A stretch of DNA of 64,000 nucleotides from Cedecea neteri (GTDB lineage: Bacteria > Pseudomonadota > Gammaproteobacteria > Enterobacterales > Enterobacteriaceae). The stretch covers positions 3,038,001-3,102,000 of the forward strand of contig NZ_CP009459.1 in NCBI RefSeq assembly GCF_000758325.1. Direction: 5' to 3'. Of the stretch, positions 37,324 through 43,459 are shown piece after piece. Each line of letters begins with the position of its first letter. Position 1 is the stretch's first letter. Both the position numbers and the translations under genes were made by a program. Below the pieces are notes generated by a model, which was given only the letters and a program-made list of their open reading frames with translations, searched no databases and was not told the origin of the DNA.

Positions 37324-38256
37324 ATGATAAACAGCGACGATCTGGCTTTTTTCCGCACTATTGCCACCCATAGCACGCTGGCCGCTGCCGCAAGGGCGAT
37401 GAACGTCACGCCGCCCTCCGTTACGCAGCGGCTGCGCGGGCTGGAACAAAAACTTGGTGTTGATCTTATTTTGCGGCCTTCGCGGCAGGTTTCGCTGACC
37501 GATGAAGGCTCGCTGCTGCTGAGCCGGGCGGAGAAGATTCTCACCGAACTGGCGGGTCTGCAATCTGCCCTGGATGACAGGCGGCAGCAGGTCAGGGGCA
37601 AGCTGCGCGTGCTGGCCCCGCTGGGGTTTGGCAACGATTATATTGCGCCGTTGCTGGGGGAATACGCCGCCCAGCATGAAAACCTCGAAGTGGAGCTGAC
37701 GCTTTCCGACGACCCGCATTGGGCCACGCTACACAAGTGGGATTTGGTTGTTTTCATCGGCGAGTTGCGCGACTCGAGCATGCACTGCATCAAGCTTGCG
37801 CCCAACCAACGCTTTATCTGTGCTTCGCCGGAATATCTGAACCGAAAGGGCACGCCGCTAACACCGGAACAGCTTGTGGAGCACGACTGCATTGCGCTGC
37901 GGGAAAACAGCGAAGATGTGACGCTGTGGCGTTTTTCCGGCCCAAAAGGGGACTGCCCGCAGCGGATCTCGCCCAAATTATCGAGCAACGAAGGACGCGT
38001 GGTAAAAGAGTGGGCGCTGACGGGCAGGGGGATCATTATGCGCTCCGAATGGGATGTGCTGCCGCAAATCCACAGTGGCGAACTGTTGAGACTACTGCCG
38101 GAATACACGCTGCCAGATGCCGACATCGTGGCGCTGAGCGGCACTCCGCAGGCGGAACGAAGCCCCAGGGCGCAAAAGTTTATCGAACTGCTTAAGCTGC
38201 GGCTGGCGGGTAGGCCCTGGGGGGAATATGCTCATGCTATTGGCGCAAGGGCATAG
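37324..38256 (+). CDS. LysR-family transcriptional regulator
   Basis: A 310-residue LysR regulator with FRTIATHSTLAAAARAM and PPSVTQRLRGLEQKLGVDLI forming the HTH. The substrate domain has FICASPEYLNRKGTPLTPEQL. Divergent from the DSD1-type gene, which it probably controls; AATTAGGT occurs twice in the gap (near 37275 and 37309). Its last 25 bp overlap the end of the convergent metallo-hydrolase gene. Confidence 0.9.
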   Translation: MINSDDLAFFRTIATHSTLAAAARAMNVTPPSVTQRLRGLEQKLGVDLILRPSRQVSLTDEGSLLLSRAEKILTELAGLQSALDDRRQQVRGKLRVLAPLGFGNDYIAPLLGEYAAQHENLEVELTLSDDPHWATLHKWDLVVFIGELRDSSMHCIKLAPNQRFICASPEYLNRKGTPLTPEQLVEHDCIALRENSEDVTLWRFSGPKGDCPQRISPKLSSNEGRVVKEWALTGRGIIMRSEWDVLPQIHSGELLRLLPEYTLPDADIVALSGTPQAERSPRAQKFIELLKLRLAGRPWGEYAHAIGARA

Positions 38257-39083
38257 GAAATAGCATCCCCATCATCAACCATGCCAAGGGTAGCAAAGCC
38301 GGTCCGGTCCAGATGCATACCTGCAATAAGCAGTTTTTCCCTTGCGGCTTGTTTCAGCAGGTTTTTCCGCGTTTGTTCGGCTTGCACCGGATCAACGTCG
38401 AAGAGAATACAGGCGCTGGGCTGCGCAGATTGAATGTGGGGGTAATGAACGATGTCCCCCCATATGAGTAAGCTTTTATCGTCCGCATCAATGCGAAAGC
38501 CAGTGTGGCCCGGCGTGTGACCCGGTAACCAAACCGGGAGGATACCCGCCGTGATTTCACGCTGGCTAAAAAAATGCAGGTTCTGTGCATAGGCCTCTAA
38601 TGTTTGACGTGCCAGCCTGAAGTTAAGTTTGCCCCGCTCATTGGCGCCTCTTTGTTTTTCATCATTCAGCCAGTACTCTGCTTCCAGAGGGTGCAAATGA
38701 AGTTCCGCCTGTCTATAGACAGGGTTTCCTTCTGCATCCAGCAGGCCGCCAATATGGTCAGGATGACAGTGACTCAACAAAACCATGTCCACGTCATCTG
38801 GACCGACACCCAGAGCGGCAAGATTTGTTCTCAATTGCCCGCCAACGTTATTCCGTCCCCCCGTACCTGTATCCACCAGCAGGGTGAGTCCCTGCCCGCG
38901 GATCAGGTAAGCGTTAATTTGAATATTGCCGGGCTCGGCCAGGCCTGCGCTCTGCTGGATGGCTTCTGCTTCAGCGATGTCGATGCCAGAGAGTAAATCC
39001 AGGCTGGCGGGCATGGAGCCATCACTTAAGGCGGTAACCAGAAAATCGCCAATCTGGCAGGACGGAAAAGATGAATAATTCAT
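38232..39083 (-). CDS. Metallo-beta-lactamase-fold hydrolase
   Basis: A 283-residue MBL-superfamily enzyme. The metal-binding motif LLSHCHPDHIGG places His105, His107, Asp109 and His110; further ligands are in LPGHTPGHTGF and WGDIVHYP. The layout resembles the quorum-quenching lactonase and methyl parathion hydrolase-like groups, but substrate cannot be read from sequence. No signal peptide, so cytoplasmic. It is divergent from the LysR gene at 39329. Confidence 0.85.
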   Translation of the reverse strand: MNYSSFPSCQIGDFLVTALSDGSMPASLDLLSGIDIAEAEAIQQSAGLAEPGNIQINAYLIRGQGLTLLVDTGTGGRNNVGGQLRTNLAALGVGPDDVDMVLLSHCHPDHIGGLLDAEGNPVYRQAELHLHPLEAEYWLNDEKQRGANERGKLNFRLARQTLEAYAQNLHFFSQREITAGILPVWLPGHTPGHTGFRIDADDKSLLIWGDIVHYPHIQSAQPSACILFDVDPVQAEQTRKNLLKQAAREKLLIAGMHLDRTGFATLGMVDDGDAISYALAPIA

Positions 39084-39328
39084 AAAGACCTCAGGAGGAG
39101 TTCAGGAGACAGACCCGGTTTTTATGCCTGACGGCGGTGGGGCAAAATCATTCGACGCTTGCTCACTTCCAGAGACATGGCATCGACTAATCACCGCAGG
39201 CATAAATCAGTAAATCGGCTTGATGATTTTTTGTCATGCTACTGGTTATACTTCCGCGAATGAATCGATAATATTTCATCGATCGGTGATATTTAGTCAC
39301 TGATTGTTGATTGTCTGCCTGGAGGCGT

Positions 39329-40231
39329 ATGCGTAGAAAAATTCCCAGCAGTACATCCCTGCAGGCTTTTGAGGCGGCGGCCCGGCACGGTAATTTTGCC
39401 CGGGCAGCCGAGGAACTTTCGCTGACGGAAGGGGCCATTAGTCGCCAGATTGCACGCCTCGAATCGTTACTGGGTTGTCGACTGTTTGACCGGACAGGGA
39501 GCCGCGTGAAACTCAACCCTGTCGGTACGCGATATGCCTCCCATGTTCGCGAAACGCTTAAGCGAATTGAAAGAGATACTCAGTACATCATGGGTATGCC
39601 GAGGGACAGCAGGAGTCTGGATATTGCCGCGCCACCGACATTTTCGAGCCGGTGGCTTATCCCCCGGCTGAGCCGTTTTGCTGCTTTACATCCGGACATC
39701 ACGTTAAATATTGCCGCCAGAACCGATCCTTTCGTTTTGAGCGGAAGCGGTTTTGATGCCGTAGTGCATTTTGAACATGCCGCATGGGCCGGGATGCGCG
39801 TGCAATTTCTCTTTGAGGAAAAACTGGTTCCCGTATGCCACCCGGGGTTGTTAACAGATCATGAGGGAAAGGGGCAGTTGAAGGATTTACCAAGAATTCA
39901 CAGACGCCTGAACCCGGATGCATGGCATCACTATGCCCGTGCAACGGGAATAAGCCTTGATAATCTGGCGCAGGGGGCCCGGTACGATCTTCATGAAATG
40001 GCCATTGCTGCCGCACTGGCTGGGCAAGGTGTTGCCCTGGTACCACGCATGTACGTTGCACAAGAACTCGATAGCGGAAGACTGGTCGCCCCCTGGCCGG
40101 AATCAGACTCGTTGAGTAAAAAATTCTGTTTAGTGAAACCGGTGGAAACGGGAATCAACGAATCTGCATTAATCGATTTTGAGTGCTGGCTACTGGACGA
40201 AATTAATCCGCAAACAGGGACATTCCGCTAA
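39329..40231 (+). CDS. LysR-family (GcvA-like) transcriptional regulator
   Basis: A 300-residue LysR protein of the GcvA group (STSLQAFEAAARHGNFARAA, then AISRQIARLESLLGCRLF). I chose the ATG at 39329, preceded by GGAGG; an upstream TTG at 39311 has no ribosome site. The gap to the divergent MBL gene has ATCGAT repeats around 39264-39292 as possible operator. Its 3' end (from about 40049) is partly repeated at 40889-40962, see the lysR remnant. The MBL hydrolase is its likely target. Confidence 0.9.
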   Translation: MRRKIPSSTSLQAFEAAARHGNFARAAEELSLTEGAISRQIARLESLLGCRLFDRTGSRVKLNPVGTRYASHVRETLKRIERDTQYIMGMPRDSRSLDIAAPPTFSSRWLIPRLSRFAALHPDITLNIAARTDPFVLSGSGFDAVVHFEHAAWAGMRVQFLFEEKLVPVCHPGLLTDHEGKGQLKDLPRIHRRLNPDAWHHYARATGISLDNLAQGARYDLHEMAIAAALAGQGVALVPRMYVAQELDSGRLVAPWPESDSLSKKFCLVKPVETGINESALIDFECWLLDEINPQTGTFR

Positions 40232-40233
40232 TA

Positions 40234-40290
40234 GAGATTTTATTTTGCTCTCTGGTTGCCCACACTGTTTTTATTGAAAGCATCACATAA
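40234..40290 (-). pseudogene. 3' remnant of an Imm63-type immunity gene
   Basis: Read leftward, 40290-40234 encodes VMLSIKTVWATREQNKI, nearly the same as LMLSIKTAWATREKNEI at the C terminus of the intact Imm63 gene at 41002-41397, with almost identical nucleotides over about 40 bp. No upstream part of the gene remains in frame. It lies directly downstream of, and convergent with, the lysR gene, and 22 bp before gpx. Confidence 0.75.
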
Positions 40291-40311
40291 GCGAGCGCTA
40301 AGGACTCCAAC

Positions 40312-40794
40312 ATGAATCCATTTCATCAACTGACGGCCACCAGTCTGACTGGCCAGCAGATTACCCTGTCCGATTACGCCGGTAAGCTGGTGCTGGTGGT
40401 GAATACCGCCAGCCAGTGTGGCTTTACGCCGCAGTACGCAGGCCTTGAGGCTCTCTATAAGAAATACGCCGAGCAAGGGCTGGTGGTGCTTGGTTTCCCC
40501 TGTAACCAGTTTGGCAAGCAGGAACCTGGTGACGCCGATGACATCGCGCGGACCTGCCATATTAACTACGGCGTGAGCTTCCCGATGTTCGCAAAAATCG
40601 AAGTCAACGGAACCGCCGCGCATCCCGTGTTTCGTTATCTGAAAAATGAGTTGCCAGGCGTGCTGGGGGGCCGCATCAAGTGGAACTTCACAAAGTTCCT
40701 GATTGGCCGGGACGGAAAACCGCTGAAGCGTTTTGCACCGTTCACGACCCCGGAGAAAATGGAAGCCGCAATCGTGGCTGCACTTAAAATTTGA
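40312..40794 (+). CDS. Glutathione peroxidase-family thiol peroxidase
   Basis: A 160-residue peroxidase. Cys36 in NTASQCGFTPQY is the peroxidatic residue (cysteine, not selenocysteine), Gln70 in GFPCNQFGKQEPG and Trp in KWNFTKFLI complete the catalytic set; Cys64 is also present. Enterobacterial homologues such as BtuE reduce hydroperoxides mostly with thioredoxin. AAGGA before ATG gives a good start. It is a lone gene bracketed by two copies of a lysR-imm63 junction. Confidence 0.92.
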   Translation: MNPFHQLTATSLTGQQITLSDYAGKLVLVVNTASQCGFTPQYAGLEALYKKYAEQGLVVLGFPCNQFGKQEPGDADDIARTCHINYGVSFPMFAKIEVNGTAAHPVFRYLKNELPGVLGGRIKWNFTKFLIGRDGKPLKRFAPFTTPEKMEAAIVAALKI

Positions 40795-40888
40795 GCGTGT
40801 CCGCCATTGGAAAAATAATGCCATCTGTGTCGTGTAAAGGGCTAAGCGAAGAACAGGGTGATGCAAAAAACTGGCGATCTTTCAATCA

Positions 40889-40982
40889 AGTGTTGCGGAT
40901 GTACGTTGCACAAGAGCCCGGCCTCGGAAGGTTTGTCGGCCCCTGGCCGGAAGTAGCCTATAGCGTAATACCATTAAGGTGA
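40889..40982 (+). pseudogene. Remnant of a lysR 3' end
   Basis: This stretch encodes RMYVAQEPGLGRFVGPWPE and then stops, matching RMYVAQELDSGRLVAPWPE near the C terminus of the intact LysR protein at 39329-40231; about 80% of bases agree over 56 bp. The rest of the gene is absent. Just before it, 40871-40887 repeats 16 of 17 bases of the mesD terminator stem (42385-42401). A 63-codon open frame from 40791 passes through it but is not convincing as a gene. Confidence 0.7.
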
Positions 40983-41001
40983 ATAATGACTATTCCAGGG
41001 G

Positions 41002-41397
41002 TTATACGTGAAGATGAGATTTGATTTCATTTTTCTCTCTGGTTGCCCACGCTGTTTTTATTGAAAGCATCAAGTAAAACCGCTTTCTAAAATACGCCGT
41101 CCTGAAATCTTCATCAGGCGAGGCGTGTGTAGCAGCGTAACTTGAAGCTAACGCATTGACGCCGCAACGAGTAAACCAATAAAGAATTTCCTCATCACTT
41201 GGCGTTACCTTTCGTGTGGTCTCCATACCTCGCTCGTTTACCACAAAATGATATTCCTGGTCATGAATCTCAAGGTAGGGTGTCGCGAAATAGTCAGGCT
41301 TATCAGGAATAATAAAGTAATGGTTTGGCCTGACGCCGCCCCCGAGTTGCTTGCCAATAGCCAGAAGCTCAGCTCTCAGCGTTTCGATAGTTTTCAT
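41002..41397 (-). CDS. Imm63-family immunity-like protein
   Basis: A 131-residue soluble protein. The middle YLEIHDQEYHFVVNERGMET and EEILYWFTRCGVNALASSYA match my recollection of the immunity protein 63 family, found beside polymorphic toxins (Rhs, contact-dependent or type VI effectors). No toxin gene is nearby, so it would be an orphan immunity gene. Starts 4 bp after the stop of the upstream 67-residue gene. Its last 15 codons are duplicated at 40234-40290. Family assignment should be confirmed by profile search. Confidence 0.65.
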   Translation of the reverse strand: MKTIETLRAELLAIGKQLGGGVRPNHYFIIPDKPDYFATPYLEIHDQEYHFVVNERGMETTRKVTPSDEEILYWFTRCGVNALASSYAATHASPDEDFRTAYFRKRFYLMLSIKTAWATREKNEIKSHLHV

Positions 41398-41401
41398 TGA
41401 G

Positions 41402-41605
41402 TCATTCGTTATCCCTGTCGCTGGCGTAATATTCGAAGCCAGAAATTACGCCGTTTACTGAACAGGGAAGGAATCCACTGAACGTTAGTAAGGCGATATC
41501 GCTGTCAAGTTCACAGGGAAACCCTTGCTGTAATATCTCTTCTTTCCACTCTTCAGGCGTCGGTAGGTTGTGCGTATGTAAATAAACACCGAAATCACGA
41601 GACAT
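41402..41605 (-). CDS. Small hypothetical protein, possibly a truncated immunity-like gene
   Basis: A 67-residue protein starting MSRDFGVYLHTHNLPTPEEW and ending GFEYYASDRDNE. The start resembles a family of small acidic proteins (about 150 residues) often met as toxin-immunity neighbours, so this may be a shortened copy. A longer frame opens at 41758 but overlaps the membrane gene upstream and has no ribosome site. It is followed immediately by the Imm63-like gene. Confidence 0.5.
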   Translation of the reverse strand: MSRDFGVYLHTHNLPTPEEWKEEILQQGFPCELDSDIALLTFSGFLPCSVNGVISGFEYYASDRDNE

Positions 41606-41628
41606 ATTTAACTTGCCCTGATTTGAAA

Positions 41629-41814
41629 TTAGTTTTTCGACGAAAAATAGGAGCGTGCCGAACCACAGATAACGAAAGCGATGATGATGCTGATCAACCA
41701 GGGAATCTTTGAACCATAAAAGAAACGATTGCCAATCTCGTTTCCCAGAGTAAAACAAGTAAATATCGTAGCACCTGAGTACCAGGCTCGGATAAAGTCT
41801 CTTTTTTTTAGCAT
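41629..41814 (-). CDS. Small membrane protein, unknown
   Basis: A 61-residue protein with two hydrophobic stretches (SGATIFTCFTLGNEIG and PWLISIIIAFVICGSA) and basic ends (MLKKRD, SSKN). I do not recognise it. It is first of three close genes reading leftward (membrane protein, 67-residue protein, Imm63-like), 23 bp before the next start. Could be a small immunity or accessory protein; the gene may also be spurious. Confidence 0.4.
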   Translation of the reverse strand: MLKKRDFIRAWYSGATIFTCFTLGNEIGNRFFYGSKIPWLISIIIAFVICGSARSYFSSKN

Positions 41815-41959
41815 CTTATAACTTCTCGAATGTTGAATACCAGGATGCTACTGCTGACGCGGGTAAAAAATCAATGACCACAACCTGACAATATTGGTCG
41901 TTATCAAACGTTATGCGCAATTATGTTCGGTATCGCTGGAATGCTGATTCGGGCTCAAC

Positions 41960-42253
41960 TTAAAAAACAGCGTCCAGTAACTGCGTTTTCATTGTGGCTT
42001 CAAAGGGCAGAATTTCAGCTTTAGCAATGTTGAGTTTCTGGAATGGATCCTGGCTAAGGCGGGCTTCCAGAGACTCAATGCTGTCACATTTAGCAAGAAT
42101 AACGCCGCCATTACGGGGAATTCGCCTGCCTGATGCAAGAAATACTCCCTCTGCGTAACCTTTCTTCAGCCACTCAACATGAGCAGGAATTTGAGCGTCA
42201 ACTTCTTCTAATGGTTTTATATAAGTCAGAACAACAACGTAAATGATGCTCAT
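41960..42253 (-). CDS. YciI-family protein
   Basis: A 97-residue protein starting MSIIYVVVLTYIKPLEEVDAQ, then HVEWLKKGYAEGVFLASGRRIP with the conserved His and Asp-rich pocket of the YciI ferredoxin-like fold. Biochemical role is unknown for most members. I chose ATG at 42253, eight bases after AAGG; the preceding ATG at 42256 is possible. A CATAAG-tgc-CTTATG dyad (42254-42268) overlaps the ribosome site. Confidence 0.8.
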   Translation of the reverse strand: MSIIYVVVLTYIKPLEEVDAQIPAHVEWLKKGYAEGVFLASGRRIPRNGGVILAKCDSIESLEARLSQDPFQKLNIAKAEILPFEATMKTQLLDAVF

Positions 42254-42374
42254 CATAAGTGCCTTATGTAAGAAACAGCGGGTCTGTGGGCCATTAATAA
42301 ATGGGCAGACGTACGAATGCATAACCCGGGAGGTTGCTCGTTTTAATCTGTCAGAGTAGAAGCTATCAAACGGA

Positions 42375-42408
42375 ATAAAAAAACCTGGCGATCTCTCAAT
42401 CGCCAGGC
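42375..42408 (-). terminator. Rho-independent terminator after mesD
   Basis: On the minus strand CCTGGCGAT-tgagag-ATCGCCAGG is followed by seven T residues. A partial copy, including the A run, lies at 40865-40887. Confidence 0.9.
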
Positions 42409-42427
42409 TGGCTAGATAAATTTCTGG

Positions 42428-43459
42428 TTATTTACCCAGAATTTCTCTACGCACGATCTCGGCCCCGGCGCTTAATGCGTGCAGTTTGCCTCTGGCCACA
42501 TGGCGCGGCAGCGGAGCCATACCGCAGTTGGTGGAAGGGTAGAGATTTTCGGCATCAACGAACTGCAGCGCTTTGCGTAGCGTGTTGGCGACTTCTTCCG
42601 GGGTTTCAATGGCGTGGTTGGCCACGTCGATGGCGCCCACCATCACTTTCTTGCCGCGAATCAGCTCGAGCAGATCCATCGGTACATGGGAGTTATGGCA
42701 CTCCAGCGAAATGATGTCGATGTTTGAGGTCTGCAGTTTTGGAAATGCTTCTTCGTACTGGCGCCATTCGGAGCCCAGCGTTTTCTTCCAGTCGGTGTTA
42801 GCTTTGATGCCGTAGCCGTAGCAGATATGCACGGCGGTTTCGCACTTCAGCCCTTCGATGGCGCGCTCCAGCGTGGCGATGCCCCATTCGTTAACTTCGT
42901 CGAAGAACACGTTGAACGCTGGCTCATCGAACTGAATGATGTCCACGCCGGCGGCTTCCAGCTCTTTCGCTTCCTGGTTCAGGATTTTGGCGAATTCCCA
43001 GGCCAGTTTTTCGCGGCTTTTGTAGTGGTTGTCATACAGCGTGTCGATCATGGTCATTGGGCCAGGTAGCGCCCATTTGATTGGTCGATCGGTCTGTTTG
43101 CGCAGGAACTTGGCATCTTCCACAAACACCGGTTTTTGACGAGCCACGGCGCCGACCACGGTCGGGACGCTGGCGTCGTAGCGGTTACGGATGCGCACGG
43201 TTTCGCGTTTCTCGAAATCCACGCCGTCCAGGTGTTCGATAAAGGTGGTCACGAAGTGCTGACGAGTCTGTTCGCCGTCGCTGACGATGTCGATATCGGC
43301 CAGCTGTTGTTCGTGCAGCGCCAGGCGCAGGGCGTCCTGTTTACCCTCAATCAGTTCCTGATCCTGCAGTTTCCACGGCGACCACAGCGTTTCAGGCTGG
43401 GCCAGCCAGGATGGTTTTGGCAGGCTGCCGGCAGTGGACGTAGGCAATAATCTTTTCAT
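42428..43459 (-). CDS. mesD: Folate-independent methionine synthase MesD (core MetE)
   Basis: A 343-residue protein equivalent to only the C-terminal catalytic half of cobalamin-independent methionine synthase, without the folate-binding N-terminal half. STAGSLPKP, IVSDGEQTR, DIIQFDEPAF and VHICYGYG are core-MetE motifs, with zinc ligands expected in the His/Cys of HICYG, the Glu of SLECHNSH and a Cys near the end (NCGMAPLPR). It is paired with a DUF1852 gene 25 bp upstream, the mark of the MesD/MesX group of folate-independent, oxygen-requiring methionine synthases. Confidence 0.88.
   Translation of the reverse strand: MKRLLPTSTAGSLPKPSWLAQPETLWSPWKLQDQELIEGKQDALRLALHEQQLADIDIVSDGEQTRQHFVTTFIEHLDGVDFEKRETVRIRNRYDASVPTVVGAVARQKPVFVEDAKFLRKQTDRPIKWALPGPMTMIDTLYDNHYKSREKLAWEFAKILNQEAKELEAAGVDIIQFDEPAFNVFFDEVNEWGIATLERAIEGLKCETAVHICYGYGIKANTDWKKTLGSEWRQYEEAFPKLQTSNIDIISLECHNSHVPMDLLELIRGKKVMVGAIDVANHAIETPEEVANTLRKALQFVDAENLYPSTNCGMAPLPRHVARGKLHALSAGAEIVRREILGK

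Follow-up and report, generated by a model that had tools for sequence, protein, structure and literature searches.

Remnants of a duplicated lysR–dh–imm63 block on both sides of a glutathione peroxidase gene in Cedecea neteri

Organization of the locus

The window analysed here is a 64,000-nucleotide stretch of Cedecea neteri DNA (contig NZ_CP009459.1, positions 3,038,001 to 3,102,000), in which a glutathione peroxidase gene (gpx) lies between a LysR-type regulator gene (lysR) and a convergent immunity gene (imm63). The features of the locus are given below in window coordinates, together with the evidence for each. The abbreviation dh denotes a D-2-hydroxyacid dehydrogenase gene, D1, D2 and D4 are repeats described in the next section, and G002 and G007 are related genomes.

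38232–39083, divergent from lysR: MBL-fold gene beside lysR
39329–40231, plus strand: lysR, intact left copy, a GcvA-like LysR regulator (Pfam HTH_1 and LysR_substrate)
40046–40109, plus strand: left copy of the duplicated lysR tail, within lysR (D1, shuffle test)
40236–40290, minus strand: imm63 3′-end remnant, joined straight behind lysR (D2, G007 alignment)
40291–40311, plus strand: gpx leader (alignment of seven gpx upstream regions, by eye)
40312–40794, plus strand: gpx, glutathione peroxidase, 160 aa (Pfam GSHPx, E 4.5e-42)
40865–40887, plus strand: first half of a terminator, cut in the loop and joined to a lysR tail (D4, alignment, shuffle test)
40895–40953, plus strand: right, decayed lysR tail (D1, own-genome search, alignment)
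40955–40995, plus strand: leader and first codons of a lost dh, ATG at 40986 (G007 comparison)
41002–41397, minus strand: imm63, intact orphan immunity gene, 131 aa (Pfam Imm63, E 4.7e-14)
41402–41605, minus strand: 67-aa ORF, N-terminal portion of a gene that in G002 runs to 140 aa from the same ATG; function unknown
42379–42401, plus strand: terminator region adjoining the metE-like gene, paired with 40865–40887 (D4, alignment)

The names lysR, gpx and imm63 had been assigned in a preliminary description of this DNA, and the Pfam domains found in the three products agree with them. The imm63 product scores 52.8 bits against Imm63 (PF15599), for which the curated cut-off is 26.7, placing it within the family; for lysR the top NCBIfam model is GcvA, with a score under that model's cut-off. 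A Pfam scan of the eight proteins of 38232–43459, imm63 included, revealed no toxin domain, which is why we call imm63 an orphan, and its small neighbors showed no immunity domain. No transposase was found among the same eight proteins, the remaining ORFs being read by eye, and none of the 15 pairs of inverted repeats (12–21 nt) listed for 4.5 kb frames gpx. The window further holds a 61-aa ORF, a YCII-domain gene, a metE-like gene and, adjoining the latter, a 325-aa gene that we take to be DUF1852. Relative to G007, the window lacks a region of ∼390 bp between the 67-aa ORF and imm63; G007 is itself without most of a 194-aa gene that G002 has. The MBL-fold gene resembles AidB-type N-acyl homoserine lactonases (E 3e-59, under the curated cut-off), and the MBL–lysR pair is seen again in most of the closer lysR loci among those listed, Acinetobacter included.

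Direct repeats on both sides of gpx

Both the lysR 3′ end and the imm63 3′ end occur on each side of gpx, as the preliminary description had reported and as the repeats themselves, the shuffle tests and a search of the window's own genome all bear out. Repeat D1, the lysR 3′ end, pairs 40046–40109 with 40896–40959 in direct orientation, 850 nt apart; the identity of 78% over 64 nt is close to the ∼80% given earlier for the decayed right-hand tail. Repeat D2, the imm63 3′ end, is likewise direct and pairs 40236–40290 with 41023–41077 at a distance of 787 nt. This match had been put at 95%; the match itself stands, and its measured identity is 91% over 55 nt (94% over 50). A third and weaker repeat, D4, which had escaped the preliminary description, joins 40865–40887 to 42379–42401 at 91% identity.

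Each repeat was compared with 2000 dinucleotide shuffles, and in no case did any of the 2000 reach the observed local alignment score, in keeping with the earlier expectation of an alignment better than shuffled sequence. The scores are 36 for the lysR tail (shuffle maximum 15), 45 for the imm63 end (maximum 18) and 19 for the terminator repeat (maximum 17, a small margin). When 40790–41100 is used to query the window's own genome (4.66 Mb, E ≤ 0.001), the only matches are the query itself and the two left copies (E 5.1e-15, 94% over 50 nt; E 5.7e-8, 81% over 57 nt). That the flanks of gpx resemble each other by chance, or are unrelated genes, is refuted by the shuffle results and by relatives that hold intact intermediates, and we give this explanation practically no credence. 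A plasmid origin was also considered and rejected, as none of 72,556 plasmid records matched 40790–41420 in a search at distant sensitivity.

The duplicated block contained dh

The locus was compared across a genus sample of eight genomes, the window's own included. In G007 the order is lysR, dh, ∼80 nt of imm63 end, gpx, half terminator, lysR tail, dh start and imm63, and in G002 it is lysR, gpx, lysR tail, dh and imm63. G003 and G006 have lysR, gpx, terminator and metE in that order, without dh or imm63. In G004 and G005 an aph-like gene precedes gpx, which is followed by other genes and then metE, and in G001 gpx lies ∼2 kb from the DUF1852/metE pair, on the pair's other side. The last three genomes thus have gpx near metE without lysR.

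The dh gene encodes 320 aa in G007, and the G002 copy gives a match to Pfam 2-Hacid_dh_C with E 9.7e-44; the two genes are 93.5% identical over 960 nt. At E ≤ 1e-30, dh is present in two of the eight genomes, to the left of gpx in G007 and to its right in G002, and has no match in the window's genome. Positions 40955–40995 of the window are nevertheless identical, at 41 of 41 nt, to the start and front of the left dh copy of G007. Because this leader and the first codons were kept, the left and right remnants in the window can both be recognized as former parts of a lysR tail–dh–imm63 block. The flanks of gpx are therefore remnants of one duplicated block, composed of the lysR tail, dh and the imm63 3′ end, and the duplicated unit is not a lysR/imm63 pair. 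The preliminary description had read the two tails as a lysR/imm63 junction present twice, which G007 and G002 contradict, since dh once stood between the tails. Its proposal of a duplication followed by loss of different parts fares better: G007 keeps more of both copies, and what needs correcting is the unit, which included dh. It follows, as a caution, that lysR and imm63 should not be taken as a pair, because the gene that once linked them has been lost here and survives in related genomes.

A duplication with subsequent independent losses predicts that dh can persist on either side of gpx, as G007 and G002 show. Comparison of the individual joins, by eye, places them in an order. The right join of lysR tail to dh leader is common to the window, G007 and G002; the left join of imm63 end to gpx leader, as well as the right dh deletion, is common to the window and G007. 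In the window the left and right dh deletions end at different points. The right lysR remnant extends 5′ to the equivalent of 40028 in G002 and only to 40046 in the window and G007, which implies that the precursor was probably longer and was eroded independently. The preliminary description had also envisaged strains with two full imm63 genes or without gpx at this locus; neither kind occurs among the eight genomes.

Elsewhere in the family, dh was found in 2 of 294 genomes (E ≤ 1e-90, in a sample without G002 and G007), in unrelated contexts. A conserved lysR–dh pair was considered and rejected, given that dh lies near lysR in 1 of 78 named loci, and this one (L030) is the G007 contig. Away from the locus studied here, the MBL–lysR pair is mostly found without gpx or dh. 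Within ≤8 kb of flank, the same 78 lysR loci contain gpx in four cases, namely the G007, G003 and G006 contigs and L033, a Pluralibacter MAG in which gpx lies ∼3 kb beyond the MBL gene.

Resident and newcomer

The half terminator at 40865–40887 aligns with the gpx–metE terminator of G003 and G006, an indication that this terminator formerly closed gpx, as it does in those two genomes. This bears directly on how the two copies of the block came to enclose gpx. A plain tandem duplication of lysR–dh–imm63, complementary losses from the two copies and a later arrival of gpx between them would yield duplicated ends and dh retained on opposite sides in G007 and G002, both of which are observed. Against it stands the terminator half between gpx and the right copy: its resemblance to the gpx–metE boundary implies that the rearrangement itself probably involved gpx together with this boundary, and we regard the tandem duplication as improbable.

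Throughout the genus sample, gpx lies within about 3.5 kb of a metE-like gene (8/8 genomes), lysR is near metE in 5/8 (scored as a nucleotide match to the lysR 3′ third) and imm63 in 3/8. On these counts gpx is probably the resident gene, and the lysR–dh–imm63 DNA is probably the newcomer, which would have overwritten both flanks with overlapping pieces. The preliminary description had offered, as the second of two options, gpx as the insert, so the roles are probably reversed. A version of that proposal nonetheless deserves attention: gpx, with its leader and half terminator, may have been inserted into a resident lysR–dh–imm63 by template switching or unequal exchange, with ∼1.2 kb of target duplicated. 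It would produce the same structure from one event, with the gpx leader at one end of the insert and the terminator loop at the other. Against it, gpx keeps its place near metE in every genome whereas lysR, dh and imm63 vary, and the half terminator points to gpx having adjoined metE already by the time the right join arose. We consider this insertion unlikely, if by no means far-fetched.

We judge it likely that the locus is a recombination-scarred variable site in which duplicated lysR–dh–imm63 remnants, later eroded, flank a resident gpx. According to this scheme, the original neighbor of gpx would have been the metE-like gene's terminator. Horizontally transferred DNA with lysR–dh–imm63 would have recombined into the two flanks of gpx, the outer side of each piece being held by homology (to MBL/lysR for the left piece, to metE for the right one) and the inner joins arising by illegitimate recombination (imm63 end to gpx leader on the left, terminator loop to lysR tail on the right). 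To the eye, the sequences meeting at these two inner junctions look unrelated in alignments. Overlap of the two pieces would have duplicated the lysR tail–dh–imm63 end around gpx, and the redundant copies would then have been eroded by deletions, differently in each lineage. Against the scheme, the presumed donor order of lysR, dh and imm63 without gpx is absent from the eight genus genomes, the 78 lysR loci and the dh matches in the 294 family genomes, and three genomes underlie the proposed number and order of events.

The repeats themselves would need no function under this scheme. A functional reason for retaining them, such as recombination between them to switch the block around gpx, would account for their presence, but the copies are short, 78–91% alike and eroded differently per genome, and we find such a role very hard to credit.

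The locus is ordinary genome evolution, made unusually legible by the related genomes. It offers a clear case, ordered by shared junctions, in which recombination strands a gene between two broken copies of other DNA, and related lineages then retain different copies of a duplicated gene.

Further recombination around gpx

The gpx of G002 is a mosaic, its 5′ part resembling G003/G006 and its 3′ part the window, with the switch about two thirds along. The test of this pattern with 39 informative sites (20 + 19) gives p 1.5e-4 over 20,000 permutations, and p 0.0037 when G007 is substituted for the window. On sequence comparison, the mosaic is direct evidence of further recombination at the locus, and it would explain the absence of the left dh and imm63 end from G002, which were presumably lost when DNA of the lysR–gpx type took the place of its left side. 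Since G002 and G003/G006 have the same lysR–gpx spacer, nothing on the left of gpx in G002 attests independently to a left copy.

Identity to G002 is likewise uneven across the window, at 88.6% for the MBL gene, 91.4% for lysR, 91.5% for gpx, 95.7% for imm63 and 97.6% for DUF1852. Nucleotide identity of lysR is 95.2% with G007 and 91% with G002, G003 and G006, and imm63 is 98.2% identical between the window and G007. The gpx of G007 is 92.8% identical to that of G005, as against 89.9% for the window, and has a leader of the G005 type; given the junctions that G007 shares with the window, a further exchange of gpx must be assumed, which weighs against the scheme proposed above.

In G004 and G005 (L027 and L028; 2/8 genomes), an APH_6_hur-type kinase gene extends up to the gpx leader, and a short leader is common to the gpx of G002, G003 and G006 and to the aph 3′ end in G004. 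The idea that the gpx 5′ leader is an aph scar is weakened by L033, where gpx has a similar stretch behind another gene.

Relation to known systems

In homology-facilitated illegitimate recombination, the integrated piece is homologous at one end and not at the other. Two articles (PMC6382021, PMC8504540), which cite de Vries and Wackernagel 2002 for the process, describe foreign DNA joined by homology together with a join at short (3–10 bp) or little homology. The joins proposed for the gpx locus are alike in their hybrid of homologous and illegitimate joining. They differ in concerning both sides of one gene and in being deduced from genome comparison, with no transformation observed.

In Vibrio cholerae, according to PMC5361080, effector–immunity modules are displaced by recombination and orphan immunity genes are left behind. 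The resemblance lies in successive recombinational replacement that leaves older immunity genes; in contrast, no toxin gene or secretion cluster was found beside the imm63 of the window, and the flanking genes are mostly metabolic or regulatory. Imm63 also occurs in polyimmunity loci, and the toxin families linked to it have been listed (PMC3482391). The window resembles such loci in having imm63 beside other small genes of variable content, and differs in that no immunity domain was detected in these neighbors. Among the 10 articles listed of 1,498 matches, titles and abstract beginnings contain nothing on this locus.

imm63 in other genera

In other genera of the Enterobacteriaceae, a unit of ∼570 bp holding imm63 alone recurs with 90–99% identity at places that mostly differ in their wider surroundings, and one or both of its sides carry repeat-like ends (GTCCGCT..TGGCAC..AGCGG). 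In these loci imm63 occupies the following positions.

L127: 8308–8709
L128: 8016–8417
L129: 7701–8102
L131: 8014–8415
L132: 8273–8674

Judged from these sequences, the unit is possibly a mobile one-gene immunity cassette. An abundant repeat behind it was considered and set aside, the exact 22-nt core occurring only 1–2 times per genome in six genomes, and a search of E. coli for the related imm63 unit of L131 gave no match (at near sensitivity). In G244, from another genus (L131: 7374–8415), gpx is followed by a convergent imm63 whose product has 64% aa identity to that of the window; this adjacency probably arose independently. Under a broader proposal, which strikes us as a long shot, imm63 would be one of a class of orphan-immunity cassettes of a single gene each, which travel from genus to genus and tend to settle behind convergent genes, gpx among them; if this were true, the window's scars would be the trace of repeated gains and losses at such a landing spot. 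Some flanks of the unit are shared, namely an upstream gene between L128 and L129, a downstream gene between L129 and L132, and ∼430 bp upstream between L127 and L131.
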